46,619 nucleotides of DNA, taken from the NCBI GenBank assembly GCA_000447185.1, contig KE647341.1, positions 4,220-50,838 on the forward strand. The letters are read 5' to 3'. The position numbers and the translations under genes were made by a program. Below, in pieces: positions 3,747 to 31,447 of the stretch. The stretch's first letter is position 1; each line of letters begins with the position of its first letter. Origin of the DNA: Vairimorpha apis BRL 01 (lineage: Eukaryota; Microsporidia; Nosematidae). The notes under the pieces are model-generated. The model saw only the letters and a program-made list of their open reading frames with translations, was not told the DNA's origin and searched no databases.

Positions 3747-4715
3747 TAGCATAATAATTAAATATTTTAATTATTTGAGTAAAATATTCTTTTTTTATTA
3801 AAAAGTTGTAAGAAATAAAAATATCACTTTTGAAAAAAACATGTAATTTTTATTAAATGGTATAATATTGAATTAATTAAAATAAATATATGTTAAGGTT
3901 TGTTTTTTTTTAATTGTGATTAAAATTTAAAATAATTTACAATAATAAATTTAAAGAATTCTAAAATTAATTAAAATCTTTAAAATTATGTTTTTTTTTT
4001 ATTTAATTTAAAACAAATTTACAACATTTAATACAAGAAATAAATGAGAAACAATAAAATAAACATTATTAGGTATAGTATCAATATTTTATGTTAAAAC
4101 ATCAGAAGAAATTTCAATAAAAAAATGATTTTAATATTTTGTTAAAATGCGAAAAAACCTTGATTTTTTTTAAAATATATAAAATGAAAACATCGTTCAA
4201 AAACACAAATAATTAAATTTAAAGTATGAATAAATGTGCATTGTAAATTCTAATAAATTTTATAAAAATAATAAATTGATAAGAAAACAAAAATTATAAC
4301 TAAGTTTTTATTTAGATCTGATTAATAAAGTTTAAAAGTTCAAAATTTTTATATGTAAATCTTAATCAAATTATTTATTTAAAATAATATATTAATAGAA
4401 TTTTTTAACGATTAACCAATTTGATAAAATGTATATATAATATGATTTTAAAACAAATTGATTTACAACAAAAATTTCTCATATGTTTCTTACATAATAA
4501 ATATTTAAAATTTTAAATAAATGTTATTTGTAAACAATAAAAGATACAATTTATCAATTATGAAAACAAAAACATTTAAAACAAAAAAAGTCTAATTCCA
4601 GAAATTTTATATATCTAACATTATTTATATCTATAAAATGTATAATAATTTATAAAAAAGTAATTTTACATTTATTCAGCTATAATATATTAAACATTTT
4701 ATTTTTAGCCCTCAA
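3747..4715. other. AT-rich intergenic region
   Basis: No coding or RNA signal seen. It ends with the CCC at 4709-4711, five bases before the CCT delta start. Confidence 0.5.
4709..4711 (+). promoter_or_regulatory. CCC start-proximal motif of CCT4
   Basis: CCC in tttagccctcaaATG, an isolated C run in AT-rich DNA. Microsporidia are known to carry CCC-like motifs just upstream of start codons. Confidence 0.5.
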
Positions 4716-6172
4716 ATGAAGGAACAAAGAGAAGTATCAATAAAATCATCTATATTTGAAAGCGCAAATGCATTACTTATGACTTTATCTACTTCATTAG
4801 GTCCAAAAGGTTTAGATAAAATGTTAATAAAAAATAATAAAACAACAGTAACAAATGACGGTGCTACAATTTTAAAATTTTTTACACAACATCCTATACA
4901 TTCTATTTTGAGCAATGTATCAAGTTCGCAAGATGATAAATGCGGAGATGGAACAACAAGTGTAATAATATTAACATGTAGTTTGTTGAATGCACTTCGT
5001 AAACTTATAGAAATGGAAATACATCCTTCAATTATTTGTGATCATTTAGAAAAATGTAAAGAAATTGCTATAAATTATATAGATTCTGTTAAAATACCTA
5101 TTAACAGGTCAAATATTTTTGATACTGTTATTACAACATTAAATTCAAAAATAGTTGGAAATGCTGTAGAAATGGCAAAAGCGGCTATATCAGCTATGGA
5201 TGGTTGTGGTTATAGAAAAGAAAAAATTAGAATATTAAAAAAATTGGAGGTTCTATTGACGAAGTAACATATTCTCAAGGAATGCTGTTTACTTCTGACA
5301 TTAAAACAGAAAAGAAAAAAGTAAAGGTTGGAGTTATACAGTTTTGCATAAGTGCACCTAAAACAAACATGGACAGCAAAATTTTAGTTAACAATCCAGA
5401 ATTAATGGATAAAATTATACAAGATGAAAGAAGATATATTTTAGACATGTGTAAAAAAATCAAATTAAGTGGTTGTCAACTGCTTATAATTCAAAAAAGT
5501 ATTTTAAGAGATAGTTTATCAGAACTTGGTAAACATTTTTTGAAACAGCTTAATGTATTAGTTATTGATAAAATAGACAGAAAAGAAATAGAATATATAT
5601 GTGATGCTTTAAAAATCGAACCTATTGCTGATGTTAATTTAATGAATAACAATAATCTTAAAGAAGTTGAGATTAGAAACAATGAAGATATGATTGAAAT
5701 AGTAGGCTTTGGTTCAAGTATAATTTTAAGAGGATGTGACGATATGATTTTGGATGAAGTAGAAAGAAGTTTAAATGATGCACTATGTGCAATTAAATGT
5801 TTACATGATGAACCTTATGTTGTACCTGGTGGAGGCGCTTTAGAAATTGCAATATCTAATAAAATTTTAGAACTAGATCAAGGTAATATTGTTATAAATC
5901 GAGAAATAAGCAAAGGATTTGAAGCTATTCCATATTTTTTAGCTAGAAATGCGGGATTGAATGAAATTGAAGCTGTGTCTGAGTTAAGAAAAGCTATTTA
6001 TGACAACCCTAATTATGGAATTAGTGTTCGGGGAAATAATATAAATGATATGCTAGAAGATGATTATGTTGTTCAACCTCTTGCAACTACCAAGTCCATA
6101 ATTAACTTGGCAGTAGAGACTGTTATTTATTTATTAAAAATAGATGATATTTTACCTTCAAAAGGATATTAA
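4716..6172 (+). CDS. CCT4: T-complex protein 1 subunit delta (CCT4), with a one-base frame break
   Basis: Subunit of the cytosolic CCT/TRiC chaperonin, which folds actin, tubulin and other proteins. Group II chaperonin motifs are in order: TSLGPKGLDKM (LGPKG at 28-32), VTNDGATILK (NDGAT 47-51), GDGTTSV (77-83), then VIQFCISAPKTNMD, IIQKSILRDSLSELGKHFL and VPGGGALE. The IQFC..APKT.MD and QKSILRD.LS blocks and the closing KIDDI identify delta rather than another subunit. Joined length is about 485 residues, shorter than the ~530 of yeast or human, as usual in microsporidia. The frame breaks at the A7 run 5237-5243. One more A continues into the GGSIDE region conserved in CCT4; without it the first part stops at 5265-5267 and the second is open from 5282. 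A CCC motif five bases before the ATG supports the start. Either an assembly error or a slippage site; a pseudogene is unlikely given the conservation. Confidence 0.93.
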
Positions 6173-14437: not shown

Positions 14438-15111
14438 ACAAAAATAAATTAATTTTATTATATTCAAAATTTAAATGAAATTTCTTGTATACATTATTAT
14501 TCAAATAAAAAAATTATATAAACAATATTCTTTATATTGTAGTTTTTATACTTTTATATCAACTTAAATATACTTTTTATGGAAAAATTTTTACAAGCAT
14601 GTATTAAATTAAAGGTTATTACATAATTTATTTTAAACTATTAAAATTTGATTTTTTGCAAGAATATTTCTTATAAATTTTTTTTGATATAGTTGCTTAT
14701 ACTGCAAAAAGATTTTAGAAAGATACACAAAATACATTTTTTTTAAGTACTAATAAAAAAAGTTTTAATTAATATGAAAGTGTTTTTAAATCAAATATAT
14801 TTTTATTATATAGAAAATCAAAAGTTATTTAAATGATAAAAATAATTAACATGATATAAATTTTTATAAATTAAAATGAAATTAAAAGTAATATTTTATC
14901 AAAGAATATAAATTTTAAAATTTTTTCGAAAAATTAAGTTTAAAATATGGTTAAAGCAAATATATTTATATACTCTTTTGTTTATTTTTGTGGTTATTAA
15001 ATTTAATTCCAAAGTAAATTATATTATGATCATTTATAAAATTTTACAATCCTCTAAATCAAAAAAAATAGTTTTTTTACATGCACAAAACAAAAACATT
15101 TTAATTTATAC
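14438..15111. other. AT-rich intergenic region upstream of the tRNA gene
   Basis: No coding signal. A short open frame from 14978 merely runs through the tRNA gene and is not considered a gene. Confidence 0.5.
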
Positions 15112-15194
15112 GGCAGTGTGGCCGAGTGGTCTAAGGCGGTTGATTCGAAATCAATTGAGCGTGTCTCTCGCTGGTTCAAATCCAGTCACTGTCG
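15112..15194 (+). tRNA. tRNA-Ser, anticodon CGA
   Basis: A complete cloverleaf can be folded by hand. The acceptor stem GGCAGTG pairs with CACTGTC (one G-U pair), with discriminator G. The D arm has the A-box-like TGGCCGAGTGG, and the anticodon stem-loop GTTGA-TTCGAAA-TCAAT has anticodon CGA. A long variable arm (GAG...CTC) gives class II type, and the T arm GCTGG-TTCAAAT-CCAGT carries the B box GGTTCAAATCC. No CCA is encoded, as in eukaryotes. A TTTT follows immediately (15195-15198) and would stop RNA polymerase III. The gene reads UCG codons, which are rare in such AT-rich coding sequence. No intron is present. Confidence 0.95.
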
Positions 15195-15198
15195 TTTT
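15195..15198 (+). terminator. RNA polymerase III T-run after tRNA-Ser
   Basis: Four T residues directly after the discriminator base, the usual pol III termination signal. Confidence 0.55.
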
Positions 15199-17060: not shown

Positions 17061-17240
17061 AAATATTATATATATAAACAAAAAATAAATTTAACAGTAA
17101 AAAAATATTTATTTTAACATAATGTTATACAAAATTTATTCTGATATTTTATTTTCAAAACAAACAAAATTTTATAAAAAACTCCAAATAAAATATAAAA
17201 TTTTCAAAAATAACAAATTATATTTTTTATAAAAACCCAA

Positions 17241-17522
17241 TCAATCAAATTTTATAACATCACCAGTTTCATATGCTGGCAACCCTCTAGATGGACAATC
17301 ACTACACCTAAATGCATCTCCTTTCCCACAATTAACACAAGAACTGTTATCCCATACATTATCTTTCATCTCACATGTACAATTATCACATTTTCGTTTA
17401 ACTTTTTGTTTAGGTTTATATTCTTTTTGTATTTTATCTGTTTCTGTTAAAAATTCTTCGTCATTTGATTGTATTGGCTTTTCTATAGCTTCTAACATTA
17501 ATTTACGTAAATCGTCTTTCAT
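17241..17522 (-). CDS. DRE2: Dre2/anamorsin (CIAPIN1) reduced to its C-terminal Fe-S domain
   Basis: 93 residues. Dre2 works with Tah18 as the electron donor at the head of cytosolic Fe-S cluster assembly. The C-terminal signature is unmistakable: C62-x2-C65-x7-C73-x2-C76 within [17 protein letters not shown], then [16 protein letters not shown], matching the GDAFRC..CP..G.P.f..G pattern of the family. The upstream motif [13 protein letters not shown] keeps C45-x2-C48-x-C50, but the extra Cys that begins the first cluster-binding motif in yeast and human is absent, as no Cys occurs before residue 45. The methyltransferase-like N-terminal domain is missing entirely, consistent with microsporidian reduction. 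CCC (17529-17531) precedes the ATG. No homopolymer break is seen. Confidence 0.88.
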
Positions 17523-17626
17523 TTTAATGGGTTTTTTTAAATTGTTTTATTTAACTAAAATAAATAATTTATTTTTAAATTGTAATTTGTTAATTTATTT
17601 TAAAAAATTAGATAGTGCATAAAAAA

Positions 17627-17805
17627 TAAAAATTAAAATAATTTATAAATTACTTAAAAATTTTATTTATATGTATTGAATGTTGAACAAAATTAAAATA
17701 ATTTAAAAAATACATAATAATTTTATTTAAATGTATTGAATGTTGAACAAAATAATTTATAAATTACTTAAAAATTTTATTTATATGTATTAAATGTTGT
17801 ACAAA
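17627..17805. repeat. Tandem repeat, unit about 60 bases, three imperfect copies
   Basis: Repeated block containing aattttatttatatgtattg followed by aatgttgaacaaaa; the middle copy has diverged (aaaaaatacataataatttt). Confidence 0.7.
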
Positions 17806-18076
17806 ATTAAAATTAATTACAATTTATATATTATGTAAAAATGATTTATTATATTAGTTTTGAATTTAAAAATAAAATTAATTACAATTTATATATTATA
17901 TAGAAAATTTAAATACTTATGTTTTAAATTTAAAAAGATTATTATAATTTTATGTTAAACATAAAATATTTTTATATAGTTTATTTAATTTTTATAAAGT
18001 TAATTTATTTTTATGAAATCTTTTAATAGTATCTTATATTGTAATATCTTAATGTTTTATAATATTAAAATTATTT

Positions 18077-18220
18077 TTACTTAAAAATACATCAATTTTA
18101 AATTTATATACTTTTATAAAGAGTTTATTTATAAGTATCATTTAATTTACTTAAAAATACATCAATTTTAAATTTATATACTTTTATTAGGAGTTTATTT
18201 ATAAGTATCATTTAATTTAT
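18077..18220. repeat. Direct repeat, unit about 70 bases, two near-identical copies
   Basis: The copies start at 18077 and 18147 with ttacttaaaaatacatcaat and end near gtatcatttaattta; they differ at the centre (ataaagag against attaggag). Confidence 0.75.
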
Positions 18221-18499
18221 TAAGAATTTAATAATAAAGTATATTTTGCATTATATTTAAGTTACGAATTTAAAGATATATTTTACTAAAAAATTATATT
18301 GAAATATTACATAAAATATTATTTTTAAATAGATAACTTAATACACACAATCTAAAAACTTCACTTTTCTGTAATTTTTTATTTTATTCATTACATGATC
18401 ATAAAATCTTTAACTCAAACATTTTTATAATATTCTTTTTTAATATATTTTAAAAATCTCTACAACTTTGTAAACATTTTTCTCATATATATTTGATAA

Positions 18500-18790
18500 T
18501 CTTGAAATCTTACAAAACAATAATATTCTTCAGTATATATTTATAAAACTTCTTAAACTTAATACAACATTATATTCTTCAATAATATTTATAAAAACTC
18601 TTAACATTCTTCTCACATATATTAATAAAACTTTTTAAACTTAACACAACATAATATTCTTTACTAATATAATTAAAAAACTTCTTAATTTATAACATCA
18701 TAACATTCTTCTCACATATATTTATAAAACTTCTTAAACTTAACACAACATAATATTCTTCATTTATATATTTATAAAAACATCATAACA
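18500..18790. repeat. Imperfect A/C-rich repeats with aacttcttaaacttaacac
   Basis: The phrases ataaaacttcttaaacttaa, acaacataatattctt and cattcttctcacatatatt recur several times in changing order, as in an old, rearranged tandem array just downstream of the minus-strand gene. Confidence 0.6.
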
Positions 18791-18849
18791 TTCTTCACTA
18801 ATATTTTTTAAATCCACATACCAAAATTCTATAAACATACATTTCAATT

Positions 18850-20165
18850 CTAAAAATAATAAAAAGCTCTACAACTAACTTTAATAGCCTGTAAAACCAT
18901 TTTAATAAGCACATGATCACAAAAATTAAAATTACGAACAACCAAATAAGGACCAATAGGCAACAACGGATGAATATCAGCAACATGAAAATAAATTTCA
19001 ACAACCAAATTTTCAATAAAATTATTAAACTTATTAACTCCATTATCCAAATAAACCAAACTAAATAATTTAAGTTCAACAAAAGAAACTTTTTTATGAA
19101 CACAAATCAACATCAATAAATTTTCTTTCCATTCATCAAAATTTTTAATTCTAAATATATTAAAAAACCAACAAAATATAATCAACTTAGATTTAGAAAA
19201 CGAACTAGGATAACTTTTATATTCTTGTGAATTTAAATAACATAAAATAAAAGTAAATTTAAATATTTTATCATTAACTTCAATTAATTCTTTATTAAAT
19301 ATATATAATAAATGATCTGAATCAAAATTATGTCTATAAAAAAATCGTTGTAAATTTTTTGAATAAATTTCTAATAATTGAATAACGTTTTTAATTTTAA
19401 TATTATCTAATAAATATAATTCTCTAAATATTTTAATTTTATAAAAAATGTATTTTTGTTCTAAATATTTAAATTTTTCTTTATTTATTATAATTATATT
19501 ATCTATTTTAAATTTTTTTGACAAAATTGTGTCACAAATTTTTGTATATTCATTTAAATTATTTAAATCGTAAATGTCATTTTGTTTTAATAAATTTTTA
19601 ATTTTTAAATAACATTTTGGTAAATTTATATTATAATTATTTATAATTTGTAAATTTGTAAAAGTATTTTTCATTATTTGTTGATAATAACAAAACATTT
19701 GATCTGATATTATATTTTTGTTATTAATTAATATTAAGATTTTTTCTACTAAATCTATTGAATATAATAAAACGTAATCAAATATTTCATTTTTTGTATC
19801 ATTTGTTTTATATAATTCTGATAATAAATGTGAATAAGTAAACTTAAATTTTAAATTGATTGTATAATGTTTAATTATTTTTGTTTTTATATTTTCTATA
19901 AAAACGTATACTAAATTTTTTTGTTTGGATCTTCTAAATATGTAGTTAATTCGAAATTTGGATAAATGTCTTTGTTTAATTGTTCTAAACATTTTATTAA
20001 AGATATAGATTTTTTTCTTTCAAATAGTTCGTAGTCGTTTAAAATGTAATCTTTTAAATTGTAATGTACTGGTTCTTTATCTTGGTGTATTATTTTGTCG
20101 TTTTTGTGGTGTAAAGTGTTTAAAGAGAAATTGATTAATAAGGTGAATATAAAAAGGAATGTCAT
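18850..20165 (-). CDS. Hypothetical secreted protein, family member 2 (paralogue of 13064-14437)
   Basis: An ATG start with a clear signal peptide (MTFLFIFTLLINFSLNT), then a long helical protein of about 438 residues. The first segment stops at 19911-19913, but one extra base in the 7-base run at 19916-19922 (A7 in the gene sense) joins LEDPNKK to NLVYVFIENIKTK, exactly as in family member 1, where DPNNKKLLYVFIENLK is uninterrupted. The C-terminus has PLLPIGPYLVVRNFNFCDHV and VLQAIK. The last 300 bases are A/C-rich on the plus strand, while the first 250 are G/T-rich. The two relatives lie in opposite orientation around the tRNA-kinase-Dre2 block. The family is not recognised; secretion is inferred from the leader. 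Confidence 0.68.
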
Positions 20166-22069: not shown

Positions 22070-22675
22070 ATGAAAATCATAAGTTGGTGTAAACCTCCAC
22101 TTAAAGATCAATACAATGTTCCGTCTATACCATCTAAATTCAAAATCTTTGGAATTGAATATACAACTAATAAAGAAGTATTAGATAATAAAATGATAAA
22201 CAATAGTAATTCTTTAAGTACTGAACTTACATTAAATAATGATCAAAATGTAATTGCTAGTCATATAACAAACAATGATCAAGATTTTAATACTGAACCT
22301 ACATTTAATACTGATCAAGATTTAAATACAAACTTTACATCAAATAACATTCAACCTATAACTAATCATATTTCATCCAACACCCAACATATAAATAACA
22401 TTTCATCCAACACTTCAAATAACACTCAATCAATCAACACATTAAACAAACAAAGACTAAAATCTTTAATAAAAAAAAGCTACACAAGCTTCCTCACTTT
22501 ACTAGACACATTCGACACTAACATTATAGAAGATATAGAACATATCCATCTTAAAATAAACGAACTCTTAAACAATAATAAAGATAAAGAAGTTAAGACT
22601 GAACTTATTAGACTTAGGAATGTTAATATTAAGAATGAGATTATTGATATGTTAGAACGAATTGTTTTTGAATGA
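22070..22675 (+). CDS. Possible Mediator subunit 7 (MED7)-like protein
   Basis: 201 residues. The N-terminus has a short proline-containing part (WCKPPLKDQYNVPSIPSKF, then FGIEY), like the Pro-rich start of MED7 with its following FG. Residues ~40-125 are a Thr/Asn-rich low-complexity insert with loose repeats (NNDQDFNTEP, FNTDQDLNT). The C-terminal helices LKSLIKKSYTSFLTLLDTF and HIHLKINELLNN resemble the MED7 hallmark of LkkL..S...FL.LLd...... followed by iNmHhLlN, but the invariant EYRPHQAR block is not present. MED7 sits in the middle module of Mediator and supports RNA polymerase II transcription. The call is a pattern judgement only; an unrelated coiled-coil protein is possible. The start is backed by the CACCC motif. 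Confidence 0.45.
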   Translation: MKIISWCKPPLKDQYNVPSIPSKFKIFGIEYTTNKEVLDNKMINNSNSLSTELTLNNDQNVIASHITNNDQDFNTEPTFNTDQDLNTNFTSNNIQPITNHISSNTQHINNISSNTSNNTQSINTLNKQRLKSLIKKSYTSFLTLLDTFDTNIIEDIEHIHLKINELLNNNKDKEVKTELIRLRNVNIKNEIIDMLERIVFE

Positions 22676-23527
22676 ACTTTTTTTGTTTTTGAGAAAAGTT
22701 TATTTATATTTAAATATGCTTACTTGTTTTGTAATTTTGTGATATTAATATTGTATTTGTATATATTTAATAAATTGTGTTTTTTAAATTAATATATAAA
22801 TAAAATATGTTTTTATATTTTTAAATATTAGTATATAAATTTATATTTTTTTATATTAGTATATAAATAAATTGTGTTTTTTTATATTAGTATATAAATA
22901 AATTATATTTAATAAATTATGTTTTTTAATTATCATTTTTTAATTATTTTATATTAGTATAAAAATATATTTAATTATGTTTTTTAATTATCATTTTTAA
23001 TTATTTTATATTAATATTTAAAAATCTATTTAATTTTTAATTATTTTTTTTATATCTAGTTAATTATTTAATTATTTTATTATATATAAATAAATTCATG
23101 TACATATAAATTTATATACAAAAATATCATTTTTTATATTATATTTTTAAATATTTTATTATATATAAATAAATTCATGTACATATAAATTTATATACAA
23201 AATAAATCTAATATAATTAAATAAATTTTTCTTTTTTATAATATTCTAATTAATTTTTATTAAATTGTTTATTTAGAAGTTAATTTTATAATTATATTTG
23301 TTTATGCTATTTATTTATTTTGTAATTTATATAAAATAATATAAAAAAGTGATTTACTTTAATAATGTTTAGTTTAGTTAAAAAATATAACACAATTTAA
23401 AGATATTTAATATACAAATTAAAAATACTCTAAATACAACACAATTTTAAAATACTTAATATACAAAATATAATTTAAAAATACAATTAAACATTCATTA
23501 CATTAAAAAATACTAAAATCTCCATAT
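22676..23527. other. Intergenic region with short AT-rich repeats
   Basis: No gene. It holds many iterations of tatattagtatataaataaa between 22790 and 23000 and the 80-base direct repeat at 23073-23210. Confidence 0.5.
23073..23210. repeat. Direct repeat, unit about 80 bases, two copies
   Basis: attttattatatataaataa followed by attcatgtacatataaattt begins at 23073 and again at 23153. Confidence 0.75.
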
Positions 23528-23908
23528 TCACAACCTATCAAAACACATCTCATACCAAACATCTTTAATAACTTCAAACTCATTAACAACCCGATTCCTC
23601 AACACTAAATTCTCTTTCTCCAACTCCTCCATAATTTCCAACTCACTACACATATTATTATACAACACATCAAAATAAAAATCAATTACTTCATTATCAA
23701 CAACAATATTATTTATATCACAATATATAACAAGACATAGTCCAAGAAAATGCTCTTGTGGTATTTTAGTTGATAAATGTATTTTGTATTTAGTTTTGTA
23801 ATATGTTTTTGTGTATGTAAATAGTTGTAGTGGGTTTGTGTTTAGAATTGATGAGATTTTTGATGGTGTTGCTTTTATGTTTAGATGATTTTCAAGTTTT
23901 TTTAGCAT
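23528..23908 (-). CDS. Hypothetical protein, 126 residues
   Basis: The frame is open further upstream to 23998, but the start at 23908 (MLKKLENHLNIKATPSK) is preferred. Ten bases before it lies CACCCCC (23919-23925 on the minus strand), the same motif found before Rpn2, and the extra upstream residues are a Tyr/Ile-rich non-coding-like run. It is a helical protein with QEHFLGLCLVIYCDINNI and a charged C-terminal helix (ELEIMEELEKENLVLRNR). The coding strand is A/C-rich in the first half and G/T-rich in the second. No family is recognised with confidence. A small replication, transcription or kinetochore subunit would fit the size, but nothing in the sequence decides. Confidence 0.6.
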   Translation of the reverse strand: MLKKLENHLNIKATPSKISSILNTNPLQLFTYTKTYYKTKYKIHLSTKIPQEHFLGLCLVIYCDINNIVVDNEVIDFYFDVLYNNMCSELEIMEELEKENLVLRNRVVNEFEVIKDVWYEMCFDRL

Positions 23909-23918
23909 TTCTTTTATT

Positions 23919-23926
23919 GGGGGTGA
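23919..23926 (-). promoter_or_regulatory. TCACCCCC start-proximal motif
   Basis: Reads TCACCCCC on the minus strand, ten bases before the preferred ATG; identical to the motif before Rpn2. Confidence 0.6.
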
Positions 23927-24189
23927 TTTATTATATAATATTATATTAAATGTATGTATATTGAAGTAGATGTAGTATATTAAATAATAGATGTACAATA
24001 TAAATTTTATAAATGTAATATATTGTTATAAGTTATATTTTTATATTATATTATATTAAAATAGATGTATATATATGTAAATGATTTTTTATTGTTCTTA
24101 TATACAATTTTATTTATATCATATAATAAATAACATTTAATTATAAATCACAATTTCCATAAAATCTTAAAATAAATTACACATATTAA

Positions 24190-24250
24190 TAAATACAATC
24201 TTATACATTCCAATACAATCTTATACATTCCAATACAATCTTATTCATTT
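24190..24250. repeat. Short tandem repeat, unit 20 bases, about three copies
   Basis: acaatcttatacattccaat repeated, the third copy altered to cttattcatttcc. It lies in the A/C-rich block downstream of the minus-strand gene ending at 24325. Confidence 0.75.
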
Positions 24251-24324
24251 CCATAACATTCTATCATTATATTCCAATCTCATATCTACATTCATTCCAA
24301 CAAATATATTCTTATACACTCATA

Positions 24325-26035
24325 TTACAACATCCTCTTAAGAACATCCCTCTGCAACTTCAAAACCCTCACAAACTTATCTTTATTAAAACAACATTGA
24401 CTTTTAAACAATTCAATCTCATTTTGAAGTTCATCTACCATTTTATAAATACGACTTCCATCAATCTTAACTTTTTTTAATATTAAATCATATTTTAAAC
24501 TAAGTTTTAATATTCTCTCATTTACTTTTTTTGTACTTGCTCGTATTTTTCTATACGTTTTCTTATTTCTAAATTTATATTTTGTAGATTCTGTTTCTTT
24601 ATTTTGAGAGATTCGTTTAGTGTAGATATTTTTGTGTAATATGATCTTATTTTTGATAAGTATGTTGTATCAAATGTGTGAATGAGTTTGTTTAGAGTAG
24701 ACTCGTTTATATTTTGTGGTATTTTTATATTATTAGTGAATGTATCTATATTATTTATATTATTAGTACTTGTATTATTAGTAAGTGTATTGTCTATATT
24801 CAATTTATTATTGATATTATTCAATGTATTATTAATATTATTATTATTTAATATATTGTTATTTTCTATATTATTTATATTTAGTGTATCTAAAGTATTG
24901 TTGTTATTATTTAGTATATTGTTACTATCATAACATATATCATTAAATCTATCATAACATCCATCATAACATATACTACTATAATCAATACCACTACTAT
25001 CAACATATCTTCTATTAAAACACCCACTATACATAAATACACCATCACAAACAACTAAATCATTTCCATCTTCATCAACAAATATTCCATCAACTTGTCC
25101 ATGTTTTATTATTTTAGGATACTCATTTAATTCTAGTAAATTCTCATTCTGTAAATAAAGTTTGTTACAATTAAACAGTTTGTAATTTGATGAAGTGTTT
25201 AGAGTGTATTTTAGTACGATAATTGTGTCGTATATTTTGTATGCTTCTATCTTTTTAGTGTAGCATAAAAAGAGATATTTATTTACTATTATATTTTTTA
25301 ATGTGTTGTTATCTATAAGTGTATTGTTATTATTTATATTATCTATATTGTTATTTATATTATTATTATTTGTAAGTGTATTTTTATTATTTATATTATT
25401 TATATTAATGTTATTTATATTAGTATTGATGTTATCTATAGTGTTATTTATATTAATGTTATCTATATTATTGTTAATGTTATATTTACTATTGTTTAGA
25501 TTATTAATATTATATTTATAAGTATATTTACTATTATTATCAATTCTTCTACTATCTAATTTATCAATTCCATTTCTATTACCATCTCTAATTCCAACTA
25601 CACTCATAGGCACACGCATCCTACACACACCACTACTCACAAAACTATACTCCCTATAAACATCAAACACCTCATCAACCAAATAAACATACACACTCCC
25701 AACAAAAAAACAGATAACACGTCTCCCAACTTTAATCTCCCTTACAATACACATATTATCTACTACAAACACATTCTCATTTAAAATAAATAACAAGTTA
25801 TTACAAACTTGATAAGATTTTATTTTTATTTCAAGTATCTGATTTGTTGTTAAGTTATGTATTTTATTATTGTATATTAATAAAATGTTATTTTTATTTG
25901 TTACTAAAATGTTTAATAAGTTTGTTGTTGAGATGTTTTTTATTAATGGTGTATTTATGTTTTGTTTGTATAGAGTTGTGTTTGAAATGAAGTAGAGGAT
26001 TTTGTTTTTAGGTATGAGAATTTTAGATTTAGCAT
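24325..26035 (-). CDS. Probable beta-propeller plus coiled-coil protein with Asn-rich inserts (nucleoporin-like architecture)
   Basis: The largest open segment is 24522-25796. Upstream the same frame continues to about 26033, and the ATG at 26035, preceded by CACCCCC (26041-26047), joins it with one extra base (the T5 at 26005-26009 is a likely site). Downstream, one extra base in the T7 run 24526-24532 removes the stop at 24522 and adds about 65 coiled-coil residues (VNERILKLSLKYDLILKK to QRDVLKRML), ending at 24325. The joined protein is about 570 residues. The N-terminal two thirds show short beta-strand pairs with turns (NNKIHNLTTNQILEIKIK; VGSVYVYLVDEVFDVY; GIFVDEDGNDLVVCDGVF), interrupted by two Asn/Ile/Asp inserts; the end is helical coiled coil. 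A propeller followed by a coiled coil is the plan of Nup82/Nup88, but no diagnostic motif was found, so function is open. Confidence 0.6.
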
Positions 26036-26040
26036 TTTTT

Positions 26041-26048
26041 GGGGGTGT
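26041..26048 (-). promoter_or_regulatory. ACACCCCC start-proximal motif
   Basis: ACACCCCC followed by six A and the ATG at 26035 (minus strand). Confidence 0.55.
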
Positions 26049-26094
26049 AAAAAAAATTGTAATTGTGGGATTTAGATGAGGAGATTTATACTAT

Positions 26095-26275
26095 GTTGTA
26101 GTATTGTTAGTATATTGTAGTATTTATAGTATAGTGTGGGTATTTATAGTGGTGTTGGATTTAGATGGGGAGATTTATTGTGGTGATTTATACTATGTTG
26201 TAGTATTTATAGTATGTTGTAGTATTTATAGTATATTGTAGTATTTATAGTATGTTGTAGTATAATGGTTTGATA
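26095..26275. repeat. G/T-rich short repeats, unit about 21 bases
   Basis: tgtagtatttatagtatgt and variants (tattgtagtatttatagtat) recur many times, in the interval between Rpn2 and the propeller gene. Confidence 0.7.
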
Positions 26276-26851
26276 TGGAGATTTATTGTAGTATTGAAAG
26301 TGCATTTAAATAGTATTTGATATTTCTACTGTTTTTATATCTACATAGTATTTTATATATAGAAAATATAGTAATAGAATAAATTATTATATATATTAAA
26401 AATATTTTAAATATAATAATTTAAAATATGAAAGTACTGTAGAAATAATACATAGTAATATTAAATATAGTAATAGAATAAATATAAATATAAATAAAAC
26501 AAGTAGAAATATAAATAGGAAAATACTGTAGAAATATTAATACATAAATAGAAATATAAATACAGTAGATATATTAGAAATATTTTAAATATAATAATTT
26601 AAAATAGGAAAGTACAGTAGAAATATTAATACATAGTAATATAAATACAGTAGAAATATTAAATACAGAACTACAATATGAATATATTAAATAATAAGAA
26701 AATATAATATAATCAACCATTTTATTCACTACACAATAACATATCTCAACACACATATCATTCCACATAACATATCAACATAATAACATATCTCCTCACT
26801 CTCCAATTCACATCCACACTCCATCTCCACAACACCACTCCATCATTTCAC
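26276..26851. other. Intergenic region with imperfect A-rich repeats
   Basis: gtagaaatattaatacatag, ataaatacagtagaaatatt and related phrases recur from 26300 to 26690; from 26700 the sequence turns sharply A/C-rich. No gene seen. Confidence 0.5.
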
Positions 26852-29800
26852 TCACTCCCCATCAAAATAAACACACGGAAATTCAACACCTACTTCGCCC
26901 ATCTGAATCAACGTACACCTTTGCCCACTCTCAACTTTATTACAACACTTAACAACAATATCTTGTTCAACAACATTCTTTTTAAATTTCCTACTCTTTT
27001 TAAATTCAGGTACTTTATAAATATAATTATCATAATTTTTAACATACACTAAACTATTTTCAATCACTTCTAAATTTTTATTAAGTTTTAAATAAACAGT
27101 TGGTAAACTGCATAAACTTAAGAACATTAAATTTGGATACCAGTACCAATAATTCATAAATAATAAAACTGACATTACTCTAGTATTATCAATATTTCCA
27201 GTTTGGTTAAATATACTAAATATTATATTTCTACCTCCTGATTCACTTATTCCTCTTCCTATAATAGCTCCATATTTTACACATTGATCTTCTGATCGGT
27301 CTATTATTATTTTATTTATATTTGTTATTATTCTTTTGTAATCTGTTACTAAATGTTCGTTACATTGCATTATTACAAAACTTATTCCTATTATTGCATT
27401 TTGTCTTACTAAATTATTGTAGTCGTATATTAGTTCATCTAATATTTCTATTACTTTTTCTTTTCCTGTTCCACTATAATAAAATCCTAGTACAAGTGCA
27501 CATGTAGATCTTATATGGATATTATAATTTGTACATAGTGGATGAAGTACTTCTAAAAGTAAAGATGTATCTTTACAACAAATTAGTCCTATACTTATTA
27601 TAGCTCCTCTTTTTATATCATCATCTAGATTTGTTGTATATGTTAATAATAAGCGTATTATTTCTAGATTTCCTGTACCTACGAAGGAGGTACCTAAAGA
27701 AAGAACACCTCCAAAAGTGTCATAAGATAGTAAATTGTGATTTATTTTTCTAGAGTTTATAGAAACAATAGAAGCACCAATTCCGCAATTTCTTTTTACT
27801 CTTTCGTATTCTGTGTTTTTATAAGTTTTGTGGATTAATTTTAGGATGTCTAATTTGTTATTAGAATGGGATTTAGATGAAGAAGAAGAAGAAGATGTAT
27901 TGTTGTATGTATTGTTATTAATAGATGTATTGTTAGAATGGGATTTGTTAGTAGTAGTATTATTATATATATTATTGTTGTATATATTATTGGTAGTAGT
28001 ATTAGATATATTATTAGTATTAGATATATTATTAGATGTAGTTGTATTGCTATACATATTATTAATGTTACTACTGTTATTGTTAGATATATCATTAATA
28101 TTATTTATAGTTTTATTATCTACATTATTATCTTTTACATTCTCCATATTACTATACACATTACATCTATCTAGATTCCCTTTACTACCTACATTTTTTC
28201 TACTCTCCATACCATCATTCCCTTCACCATCAACACTACATATATCAACATATCTCTCCTTCACATCACCCTCACTCCCTTCACTTTCACTCCCACAACA
28301 CATTATACACAAAGCTAATATAGACCCCTCTACAAATACAGTATTCTCTTCATACAACAAATCTTTCAATTGTTTAACAACACTCTCTTTATAATTATTA
28401 TCTTTACAACTTCCATTACAATTATCATTACACATATTAATTAATCCTAGTCCTATACAAGCACCATAAACAATTTGTACATTACTACTTTTTATATGAT
28501 ATAATAATATTTCATTAGATACAATATCACAACTTCCTATCTTATTAAGTCCTAGTGCTATAAAAGATCCTCCTTCTTTCATATTATTTTCACTTGGTAA
28601 ATAATTCTTTAATACTTCAAGTATGTCTGGATTATTTAAATGTATCATTCCTAGACTTGCTACATCTAAAAATCGTGTCCATTCTTTTGTATTGTTAAAT
28701 ACGTCTGAATTGTTTCTGTAGAACGTGTCATTTGTTGTTCCTAGATTTATTAATGAATTTGTTATCGTTAAATATTGGCTTCTTGATTTTGTAAGGGAGT
28801 CTATAAATTTGAAACTTGTTATGTTATTTTGTACTAAAATGTCTTTTATAATTGTGTATACTTTGTGGATGTTATTTATTATATAGAGAGTGTATTCGAT
28901 GTCATTAGTAGAATGATTGTTATTATTATTGATAGAATGATTGTTATTATTGGTATAAGTAGAATGATTGTTATTATTGGTATAAGTAGATTGATTATTG
29001 ATAGATTGATTGTTGTTATTGTTATATATATTATTTATATTATTACTTATATTGTTATTAGTAGTATTATTATCATTTGTACTATTCAAATTATCTACAT
29101 ACTTATTATTATTTCCATTACTATGAAACCCACTATTATTATTATTTCCACTACTATTACTACATCCACTATTAAACCCACTACTAATATTCTCTCTCAA
29201 CCCATTATTTAATCCACTTTTAATCATATCAAGTACAAATCTATAATTATAAAACAAATATAAACAAATAGAACAAGTAAATTTACCACTGAAAATTATA
29301 TAAAATAATTTATCATATTCCTGATTGTAAACAAGTCCATCTATTACCATGTAGAGATTGTCTCGATTTATTTCTATGTCTTTTATAAATTTAAAGAACC
29401 GTGTTTTTATATTTTGAGATTCTGATAATTTATAGAGATATTTAATTAATTTTATATTTACTTTGTTAATTAGTGGGTTGTTAGAAGATAGATTGTTGTT
29501 ATTATTAGAAGAAGAAGAAGATGTATTGTTGTTGTTATATATATTATTGTTATTATCAATGGTAGAAGATGTGTTGTTGTTGATATTATATATATTGTTG
29601 TTATTATTAATAGTATTGTTGTTGTTGTTATATATATTGTTATTATAATTATCTACACTTCTATCTACACTATTATTAACAGAACTTCTATCCACACTTC
29701 TATCCATACTACAACTATCCACACTTCTATTAACACTCCCATCTAAATCAACACACATACTCACATACTCATCAACACCATCAATAAGAAACAAAAATCC

Positions 29801-30175
29801 AACCAAACACTCATCAACAACTTCATTACACATCATCTCTACAACAAACCTCCTACAAAAATGAAATCTATTATAAATTAAAACTTCCATCATCTTCTCA
29901 ACAATAGCTTGATAAAAATAACACTCTTTATCTTTAACAAAAAGTTGTTTGCTGATAATAGCGTGTCTCATAGAATTCTCATAATCTTTATTTAAAAAAT
30001 AAAGTTTTGATAAACACAAACTTGTTTCTAACGAGTTGTCTTTAATTAAATCTATGTATTTTATACAGTACGGACCTAATACAAAAATGTTGTTGTTTAT
30101 TAATGTTAAAGCTTTTGTTATGTTTTTTGTTTTTAGTAGAGATTCTATTATGTTGAATGTTTTTAAAGATTGCAT
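26852..30175 (-). CDS. RPN2: 26S proteasome regulatory subunit Rpn2 (PSMD1)
   Basis: 1107 residues; the non-ATPase scaffold of the 19S base that holds Rpn1/Rpn13 and the ATPase ring. The N-terminal helical domain includes ETSLCLSKLYFLNKDYENS. Proteasome/cyclosome repeats follow from about 500: RFLDVASLGMIHLNN, EGGSFIALGLNKIG, VYGACIGLGLINM, VEGSILALCIMCCG, FGGVLSLGTSFVGTGN, KRGAIISIGLICCKD, RSTCALVLGFYYSGTG, RQNAIIGISFVIM and KYGAIIGRGISESGGRN. The C-terminal WYWYPNLMFLSLCSLPT block is typical of Rpn2. Length exceeds the usual ~950 because of Asn-rich insertions at about 176-235, 330-425 and 685-775, which are simple aat/ata-type DNA repeats. The frame is unbroken. TCACCCCC lies seven bases before the ATG. 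Several plus-strand open frames across this gene are shadows of the Asn repeats. Confidence 0.96.
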   Translation of the reverse strand: MQSLKTFNIIESLLKTKNITKALTLINNNIFVLGPYCIKYIDLIKDNSLETSLCLSKLYFLNKDYENSMRHAIISKQLFVKDKECYFYQAIVEKMMEVLIYNRFHFCRRFVVEMMCNEVVDECLVGFLFLIDGVDEYVSMCVDLDGSVNRSVDSCSMDRSVDRSSVNNSVDRSVDNYNNNIYNNNNNTINNNNNIYNINNNTSSTIDNNNNIYNNNNTSSSSSNNNNNLSSNNPLINKVNIKLIKYLYKLSESQNIKTRFFKFIKDIEINRDNLYMVIDGLVYNQEYDKLFYIIFSGKFTCSICLYLFYNYRFVLDMIKSGLNNGLRENISSGFNSGCSNSSGNNNNSGFHSNGNNNKYVDNLNSTNDNNTTNNNISNNINNIYNNNNNQSINNQSTYTNNNNHSTYTNNNNHSINNNNNHSTNDIEYTLYIINNIHKVYTIIKDILVQNNITSFKFIDSLTKSRSQYLTITNSLINLGTTNDTFYRNNSDVFNNTKEWTRFLDVASLGMIHLNNPDILEVLKNYLPSENNMKEGGSFIALGLNKIGSCDIVSNEILLYHIKSSNVQIVYGACIGLGLINMCNDNCNGSCKDNNYKESVVKQLKDLLYEENTVFVEGSILALCIMCCGSESEGSEGDVKERYVDICSVDGEGNDGMESRKNVGSKGNLDRCNVYSNMENVKDNNVDNKTINNINDISNNNSSNINNMYSNTTTSNNISNTNNISNTTTNNIYNNNIYNNTTTNKSHSNNTSINNNTYNNTSSSSSSSKSHSNNKLDILKLIHKTYKNTEYERVKRNCGIGASIVSINSRKINHNLLSYDTFGGVLSLGTSFVGTGNLEIIRLLLTYTTNLDDDIKRGAIISIGLICCKDTSLLLEVLHPLCTNYNIHIRSTCALVLGFYYSGTGKEKVIEILDELIYDYNNLVRQNAIIGISFVIMQCNEHLVTDYKRIITNINKIIIDRSEDQCVKYGAIIGRGISESGGRNIIFSIFNQTGNIDNTRVMSVLLFMNYWYWYPNLMFLSLCSLPTVYLKLNKNLEVIENSLVYVKNYDNYIYKVPEFKKSRKFKKNVVEQDIVVKCCNKVESGQRCTLIQMGEVGVEFPCVYFDGE

Positions 30176-30182
30176 ATTTTAA

Positions 30183-30190
30183 GGGGGTGA
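30183..30190 (-). promoter_or_regulatory. TCACCCCC start-proximal motif of RPN2
   Basis: TCACCCCC on the minus strand just before the Rpn2 ATG at 30175; identical to the motif at 23919-23926. Confidence 0.6.
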
Positions 30191-31447
30191 TTTTTTTTTA
30201 TTTTTATTATGTTATTTATTGTGTTGTTATTTAAAATGTTTGGTTAGAGTGTAATGTTGTTATGAGATGTTGTTTAATTTGTAATGTTGTGGTTAGAGTG
30301 TTATGTTTAATTTGTAATGTTATTTATTGTGTAATTAAGGTGTTATGTTGTAATTAGTGTGTAATGTTGTTATTTAAGGTGTTGTGTTGTGGTTAGAATG
30401 TAAAGTTGTAATTAGTGTGTAATTAAGGTTATGTGATAGGATAAAAGAGTTTGAATGTTTGATAAGATATAAATTGGATAAGATTAAGTTATGATAAGAT
30501 TAAACATTTTGTATAAGATATTGGATTTTGTGTATAAGATATTGGATTAAGTATATAATGTAAAATATAGATCTTATTTGTGTATAAGTTAAATTACAAA
30601 TAAATTATGTTTGTAATTAATTATTTGAACTACAAATAAATTATGTTTGTTATTAATTATTTGAACTATAAATAAATTATAAACATATTTTAATTAAAAA
30701 ATACAAAAAATTAAAAATAAATTTTTATTGATAATAAACATTTTTATATTAGAAATTATTAACATTTTTTAATTAAAAAAACAAATAATTTTATATAAAC
30801 AAATTTATTATAATATCTACAGTCTATCATCTTTTATGAAATTATTTAAAATTTAAATTATAAATTGATAAAGAATATTATATAATAGATTATCTAAATA
30901 TTTTATATTTTAATTTTCTCTAATACAAATATTTTTTTGATAAAGAATATTTATACAATAGTTTATTTAAATAATTAAATTATAAATTGATAAAGAATAT
31001 TATATAATACGTTATCTAAATAATTTTTAAGATATGGATTTACTTTTATAAAAATAATATTAAAAAATGAGATTTGTTTTTATACTGTAATTATTCAAGA
31101 AAATTATGAAATATTATTAAATAAGTTTAAAAAAATTTAAAATGTAATTTAATTTTTAGATACATTTTATTTAGTATATAATAGTTGTATATTTTATATT
31201 AATTTAAAATAGTTGTTAATTTTATATTAATTTAAAATGTAAATTAATTTTCAGGTACATCTTTTTTAATATAAGATAAATAATAATTTTATTTAATTTA
31301 AAATGTAATTACATATAAAATGGATTTATATTAATTGATAAAATAAAATATATTTCAATTATTAAAATTAATAATTTACATTTAAATTGTTAAACTATAA
31401 AAATATATAATAATTTGTCAATCAAATAATGTATTAAAATAATAATG

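Follow-up and report, generated by a model that had tools for sequence, protein, structure and literature searches.

Ordered alternation of strand skew in islands of a microsporidian genome

At human meiotic breaks, C>N and A>N changes are found on one side and their complements on the other; the central 100 bp on either side show no asymmetry, and insertions and deletions (indels) are in large excess (Hinch et al. 2023, PMC7615360). In most unicellular fungi, genes have a C bias at the 5' end and a G bias at the 3' end, also at fourfold-degenerate sites and in flanking DNA (McLean and Tirosh 2011, PMC3315797). Candida centromeres show joined flips of GC skew and AT skew together with raised GC content (Koren et al. 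2010, PMC2924309). These papers, and those named below, are cited from excerpts. Here we analyze strand skew in 46,619 nucleotides of Vairimorpha apis BRL 01 (contig KE647341.1, positions 4,220 to 50,838; hereafter the window, whose positions are used throughout), in which blocks rich in A and C alternate with blocks rich in G and T over about 8 kb, across the gene for the 26S proteasome subunit Rpn2 and its neighbors. The window is most of this contig, C207 (50,838 bases), in a genome of 5.96 Mb and 223 contigs. Judged by title or abstract opening, none of the papers found in a literature search reported this pattern.

An island of alternating skew in the window

The alternation of strand skew at 22.3-30.5 kb is real. 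In the window profile, GC skew swings between about -1 and about +1 every few hundred bases inside 22.3-30.6 kb, and is 1.00 across the 200 bases at 30200-30399. In the rest of the window it is modest, except in an A/C-biased region at 17.2-19.2 kb and a few single blocks. An earlier note, made from the letters of this stretch, had claimed nine A/C and eight G/T intervals, and base counts gave all 17 the bias claimed for them, from the cleanest, 23390-23735 (C 74, G 3) and 25800-26300 (G 110, C 8), to the weakest, 28500-29030 (G 81, C 51). Two entries in that list needed amendment: 25150-25530, given as G/T, has the expected count bias (G 46, C 14) but is neutral plus AT-rich by segmentation, and a G/T block called at 27812-28049 was missing. 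GC skew and AT skew flip together, as had been noted, AT skew being the weaker (about 0.1-0.15 beside the flip points, here called centers).

A four-state segmentation, in which skewed blocks of at least 80 bp were counted and block emissions were fitted on the same islands that were then segmented, yielded 17 skewed blocks, 15 flips and 5049 bases in blocks for 22300-30500. All three values lie above every one of 60 codon-preserving shuffles (synonymous codons permuted within genes, intergenic runs shuffled), whose maxima were 15 blocks, 11 flips and 3648 bases and whose means were 12.8, 8.2 and 2919; this was the comparison that the earlier note had proposed. Dinucleotide shuffles of the same range (n = 60) gave zero blocks. 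Tandem arrays occupy 2655 of the 8201 bases of this range. Because 14 blocks and 11 flips were left after masking of these arrays, simple repeats, which the earlier note had named as a possible entire source of the blocks, do not account for the alternation.

Other islands, block order and the DNA-level signal

Similarity to the window island led to eight further contigs (C187, C206, C212, C208, C161, C99, C221 and C117), stretches of each of which bear blocks; the weakest island, on C221, holds a single G/T block besides five A/C blocks over 6 kb, and that on C117 is mostly G/T. Strong blocks were also found in 1.5-kb pieces of C192 and C182 (one each). Ten 10-kb stretches were chosen blind to sequence, six of them at contig starts: nine contain zero or one block, and one, L025 on C200, contains seven. 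An island or a block-bearing piece is thus known on twelve contigs, including three with pieces only (C192, C182 and C200). All islands except L025 were found by likeness to the first and are not a random sample of the genome. The islands on C207, C187 and C206, of which both ends were seen, measure about 8.3, about 11 and about 10 kb, respectively; the remaining islands reach contig ends, N or the edge of the sequence examined. Further similarity matches on C17, C49, C71, C135 and C191, and elsewhere on C99 and C117, mark possible further islands. One island per contig is not established, and more may lie on the same contigs. As for descent from one repeat family, this was rejected when a mostly non-coding G/T block used as query matched itself alone; another G/T block gave 12 weak matches besides itself, two of them nearby on its own contig.

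For the analysis of block order, transition probabilities in the segmentation were set equal, which left the model unable to favor any order; blocks touching N were kept. Of the neutral segments that separate unlike blocks, 30 have an A/C block as left neighbor and a G/T block as right neighbor, against 3 in the opposite arrangement; of the AT-rich segments, 26 follow a G/T block and precede an A/C block, against 3 arranged the other way. Another 13 segments are flanked by like blocks, and 21 flips of each kind have no intervening segment. Among gaps of at least 30 bp, median GC is 0.11 at G/T to A/C flips (30 gaps) and 0.25 at A/C to G/T flips (35 gaps; p = 2e-10). The AT-rich spacers lie between genes or form inserts in housekeeping proteins. 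Being its own reverse complement, the order rule is independent of gene strand. The earlier statement that the switches ignore gene borders was not borne out: flips follow the distinction between ordinary cores and AT-rich spacers.

Neighboring blocks alternate in 107 of 124 pairs. Median block length is 260 bases for G/T and 308 bases for A/C, and G/T to A/C centers are spaced at a median of 969 bases (35 intervals). This spacing bears on replication as the cause. Constitutive starts clustered in the cores, with replication ending in the AT-rich spacers on the pattern of Candida centromeres, would give the correct A/C to G/T polarity at a start, and the joined flips and raised GC reported there (PMC2924309) speak for such an origin. 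Starts and ends would, however, have to lie about 1 kb apart, with starts within conserved coding cores, and several origins should blur the skew according to the same excerpt; we therefore regard replication as distinctly improbable.

Fourteen island frames were chosen from a longer list of open frames; those other than Rpn2 run from stop to stop or to the end of the stretch and may contain some non-coding sequence. Codon positions 1 and 2 served to label the blocks, after which third positions were read. At fourfold sites, G:C was 117:5 in G/T blocks and 1:49 in A/C blocks, indicating that the process acts on DNA, not on protein. At twofold sites, C:T in C/T-ending codons was 40:1236 in G/T blocks versus 218:383 in A/C blocks, and G:A in A/G-ending codons was 260:389 versus 17:215. 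In each of the 14 frames, local skew was higher than in any of 200 synonymous shuffles. Codon or protein composition as the sole cause is ruled out by the fourfold sites and by the DNA outside the frames. The view that the blocks are short, real and act on DNA, and are not a whole-gene asymmetry of replication or transcription, is thus supported.

Part of the skew survives synonymous shuffling, and amino-acid choice therefore also carries part of it. Selection on RNA or protein, whether as avoidance of C or G in stretches or through useful Asn-rich inserts, would explain the tie between amino-acid choice and the blocks. Against it, the blocks are seen at fourfold sites and in non-coding DNA too, and folding gave no general excess of pairing between G/T blocks and the A/C blocks that follow (43 pairs, median z -0.07, 3 above 3). 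We consider such selection very improbable. A fold-back origin of the G/T-A/C pairs was rejected on the same pairing result. An artefact of assembly or sequencing, from strand-damaged or chimeric DNA, is scarcely credible: strand-ordered base change is typical of damage, and the assembly is fragmented, but 14 of 14 frames (picked as open) stay open for up to 1107 codons, conserved domains match, and the same order rule holds across nine contigs.

Pooled by strand, fourfold counts on the G/T strand were 33.5% A, 0.6% C, 17.3% G and 48.5% T, compared with 43.7% each of A and T and 6.3% each of G and C in neutral stretches; A to G change is therefore needed besides C to T. Pure cytosine deamination, or repeat-induced point mutation, was rejected because fourfold G+C pooled over skewed blocks (172/960) rises over that of neutral stretches (119/944). 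The rise occurs in coding-strand G/T blocks alone (122/567, versus 50/393 in A/C blocks). No clear neighbor-base motif was seen for lost C, whose survival is lowest beside C.

The flip-profile set was limited to blocks free of N and to neighbor pairs no more than 700 bp apart, which excludes the Rpn2 core at 27075-27811 and keeps 44 of 51 G/T to A/C and 52 of 56 A/C to G/T flips. All 221 G or C bases counted at synonymous sites that lie 150-250 bp away from A/C to G/T midpoints were in the expected direction. Within 25 bp the figures were 29/35 at G/T to A/C centers and 28/57 at A/C to G/T midpoints; the turn is therefore sharper at the AT-rich centers, although the midpoints of wide cores are placed less exactly. 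Bases outside the 14 frames follow this course too, but with less sharpness. Taken together, these data confirm a locally confined, rule-bound strand asymmetry at the level of DNA.

Inserts at the centers, and features of the window

Rpn2 homologs were found with the conserved region as query. Those of ten microsporidian-like matches (P0121-P0130) have 756-789 amino acids (aa), compared with 1107 aa here, and alignment with seven homologs revealed three large inserts and one short insert. All three scored G/T to A/C centers in Rpn2 fall in residues found in none of the seven homologs, whereas all three scored A/C to G/T centers fall in residues found in all seven. As the earlier note had said, Rpn2 crosses several blocks and its composition shifts with them; the gene contains four A/C-core-G/T cycles. 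The adjoining frame, 24522-26090, matched neither Pfam nor PDB, which leaves its earlier label of propeller gene without backing.

Inserts were also mapped in thioredoxin reductase, Ufd2, an ATR/Mec1-like kinase and valyl-tRNA synthetase (three), from single alignments to solved relatives that make their limits approximate. In each of the nine mapped inserts, composition leans more toward G in the left half than in the right. Tandem arrays lie at 26 of 44 G/T to A/C centers versus 1 of 52 A/C to G/T centers, block midpoints being in arrays about a third of the time (33/88 and 32/104). Composition, synonymous codons and inserts share their centers, and the islands therefore record, to within tens of bases, a process that is strand-specific.

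The cycles in Rpn2 also bear on transcription. If the fungal gene-end asymmetry, in which the bias of the coding strand passes from C at the 5' end to G at the 3' end, were strengthened here by AT-rich inserts serving as additional promoters or terminators, the same block order would arise around any spacer (PMC3315797). Open reading frames (ORFs) outside the islands do change in skew from +0.14 in the first tenth to +0.30 in the last (50 ORFs, some double-counted, as stretches L009 and L010 share sequence with the window; L025 was covered by its first 7000 bases). This effect is weak, however, and its 5' average is never negative; several full cycles lie within single frames, and Rpn2 has four where gene-end skew would have the coding strand change once from C to G; and AT skew, flat along genes in the excerpt of PMC3315797, flips with GC skew here. 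We regard transcription as an unlikely cause, albeit one with some probability.

The features of the island are listed in Table 1. By eye, GGGGGTG occurs on the plus strand at about 23919, 26040 and 30183, near the starts of three minus-strand frames, and resembles the CCC-like start motif of microsporidia. Outside the island, A/C-biased blocks at 17156-17395 and 18337-19186 show little alternation across 17156-19186. A 296-aa part of the CCT delta protein encoded in the window is 73% identical to that of Vairimorpha necatrix and 62% identical to that of Nosema granulosis; the gene reads in two overlapping frames, 4686-5267 and 5231-6172. Frame 384-1250 has no Pfam match, and by eye we take it to be a candidate end of a LINE-type retroelement protein. 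On contig C182, about 600 bases (480-1090 of stretch L036) are nearly without C, and the frame beside them is, by eye, a candidate that we take to resemble release factor eRF1.

Table 1. Features of the window: the island of alternating skew and a tRNA gene
Feature	Position	Strand	Basis
Island of alternating strand skew (contig C207, ~26.5-34.8 kb)	22300..30588		Profile and segmentation
A/C block	22324..22523	+	Segmentation
G/T block	22614..22759	+	Segmentation
AT-rich spacer, intergenic, between convergent frames; G/T to A/C center	22760..23427		ORF list and segmentation
A/C block	23428..23733	+	Segmentation
G/T block	23756..23975	+	Segmentation
AT-rich spacer, mostly upstream of minus-strand frame 23528-24025	23976..24148		ORF list and segmentation
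A/C block, non-coding by ORF listing	24149..24503	+	Segmentation
G/T block	24598..24792	+	Segmentation
AT-rich spacer within frame 24522-26090 (Asn-rich)	24793..24924		ORF list and segmentation
A/C block	24925..25094	+	Segmentation
AT-rich stretch within frame 24522-26090 (Asn-rich)	25275..25540		Segmentation and base counts
A/C block	25541..25796	+	Segmentation
G/T block, extending into intergenic DNA	25840..26302	+	Segmentation
AT-rich spacer, intergenic	26303..26713		Segmentation
A/C block covering Rpn2 3' end and beyond	26714..27074	+	Segmentation
Rpn2 (26S proteasome subunit), 1107 aa, three large lineage-specific inserts	26852..30175	-	Domain and homolog matches
Conserved Rpn2 core (most conserved part of gene), unskewed	27075..27811		Homolog alignment and segmentation
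G/T block	27812..28049	+	Segmentation
Rpn2 insert 3, G/T to A/C center at 28084	27854..28282	-	Homolog comparison
A/C block	28120..28541	+	Segmentation
G/T block	28783..29080	+	Segmentation
Rpn2 insert 2, G/T to A/C center at 29080	28853..29236	-	Homolog comparison
A/C block	29081..29268	+	Segmentation
G/T block	29401..29652	+	Segmentation
Rpn2 insert 1, G/T to A/C center at 29652	29453..29752	-	Homolog comparison
A/C block	29653..29943	+	Segmentation
G/T block, Rpn2 5' end into non-coding DNA; no C at 30200-30499	30088..30588	+	Profile and segmentation
tRNA-Ser gene, anticodon CGA	15111-15195

Recurrent breakage as a candidate cause, and known systems

The blocks follow an order rule, belong to the DNA itself, are restricted to islands, and coincide in their turns with inserts and tandem arrays. 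Our best explanation, which we hold tentatively and at less than an even chance, is recurrent breakage in the AT-rich spacers with strand-specific mutation of the exposed 3' strands and growth of inserts; its breakage, resection, chemistry and meiosis are inferred. A strand-specific mutational process would start from fixed centers about 1 kb apart, in AT-rich spacers or inserts within islands of about 10 kb, most likely through recurrent double-strand breaks at the centers. The breaks could be programmed meiotic ones, or could arise because AT-rich DNA poor in nucleosomes is fragile. Once 5' ends were trimmed, a 3'-ended single strand would be left, the top strand to the left of the break and the bottom strand to the right, and these strands may gain A to G and C to T changes by deamination or error-prone fill-in. 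Change of the 3'-ended strand on each side would thus enrich the top strand in G and T to the left of the break and in A and C to its right. At the center, DNA may be added by error-prone joining and by slippage of repeats; in genes this DNA would appear as in-frame Asn-rich inserts.

By analogy, the polarity of the islands matches the footprint of human meiotic breaks (PMC7615360). An asymmetry that changes sign at the center, with the top strand depleted of C and A on the left, is present here (26 versus 3 in block order, and in fourfold composition), and so is an excess of indels at the centers, as inserts and tandem arrays that are fixed differences, not new mutations. The genome has two Rad51-family genes, one uracil-DNA glycosylase gene and one deaminase-family gene.

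Several observations weigh against recurrent breakage. Breakage, resection and meiosis are all inferred, and Spo11 was unmatched in the genome by two Pfam models, which a divergent Spo11 could escape. Seventeen of the 124 neighboring block pairs fail to alternate (10 A/C-A/C and 7 G/T-G/T). A called G/T to A/C center lies in only five of the nine mapped inserts; in the ATR/Mec1-like kinase both halves of the insert are C-biased, and in valyl-tRNA synthetase each of the three inserts still has a G-biased right half. Skew stays high through most of a block and does not fade from the center, and cores turn within about 100 bp, neither of which is simply predicted by smooth decay from the center. 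Breakage also gives no reason for confinement to islands.

The similar size of the three islands with both ends seen makes a centromere function worth testing. The islands might be regional centromeres of this microsporidian, one per chromosome, about 10 kb long and lying over housekeeping genes, where repeated breakage and single-strand exposure of centromeric DNA would write the bias and seed the Asn-rich inserts; we consider this quite unlikely. Recombination clusters are another candidate identity for the islands. A joint flip of GC and AT skew with raised GC, as at Candida centromeres, is found here, except that fourfold G+C does not rise in A/C blocks; a single flip per site is not, the window island having 15. 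According to the excerpt of PMC12449221, GC and repeats gave no centromere signal in the microsporidian species studied, and in that of PMC13174016 the candidate centromere regions of Microsporidia sp. MB, which has 13 chromosomes, rest on methylation and retroelements. If the islands are centromeres, strand bias would be a sequence-only centromere marker in a phylum without confidently placed centromeres. If the centers are break sites, they would offer an example of breakage reshaping essential proteins.

Among known systems, vertebrate mitochondrial DNA, as generally described, also shows an asymmetry of heavy and light strands, G/T-rich against A/C-rich; it differs in having one polarity per molecule and no short alternation. 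That asymmetry is usually ascribed to changes on exposed single strands. Fungal gene-end skew (PMC3315797) shares with the islands a C bias followed by a G bias that reaches amino acids, fourfold sites and flanks, but it is genome-wide and weak, with one cycle per gene and flat AT skew, whereas the islands are confined and nearly total in their bias, with several cycles per gene and AT skew that flips. The Candida albicans centromere (PMC2924309) has the joint flip of GC and AT skew, raised GC, an effect at fourfold and intergenic sites, and special sites on each chromosome; its single flip extends over kilobases of intergenic DNA, whereas here many flips per 10 kb run through genes. Human break hotspots (PMC7615360) have the same polarity about a center, with C and A changed on one side and G and T on the other, no asymmetry at the center itself and many indels, and differ in that theirs is a mutation spectrum over flanks of 1-2 kb, whereas here base composition changes in blocks of about 250-300 bp around centers about 1 kb apart, gathered in islands.

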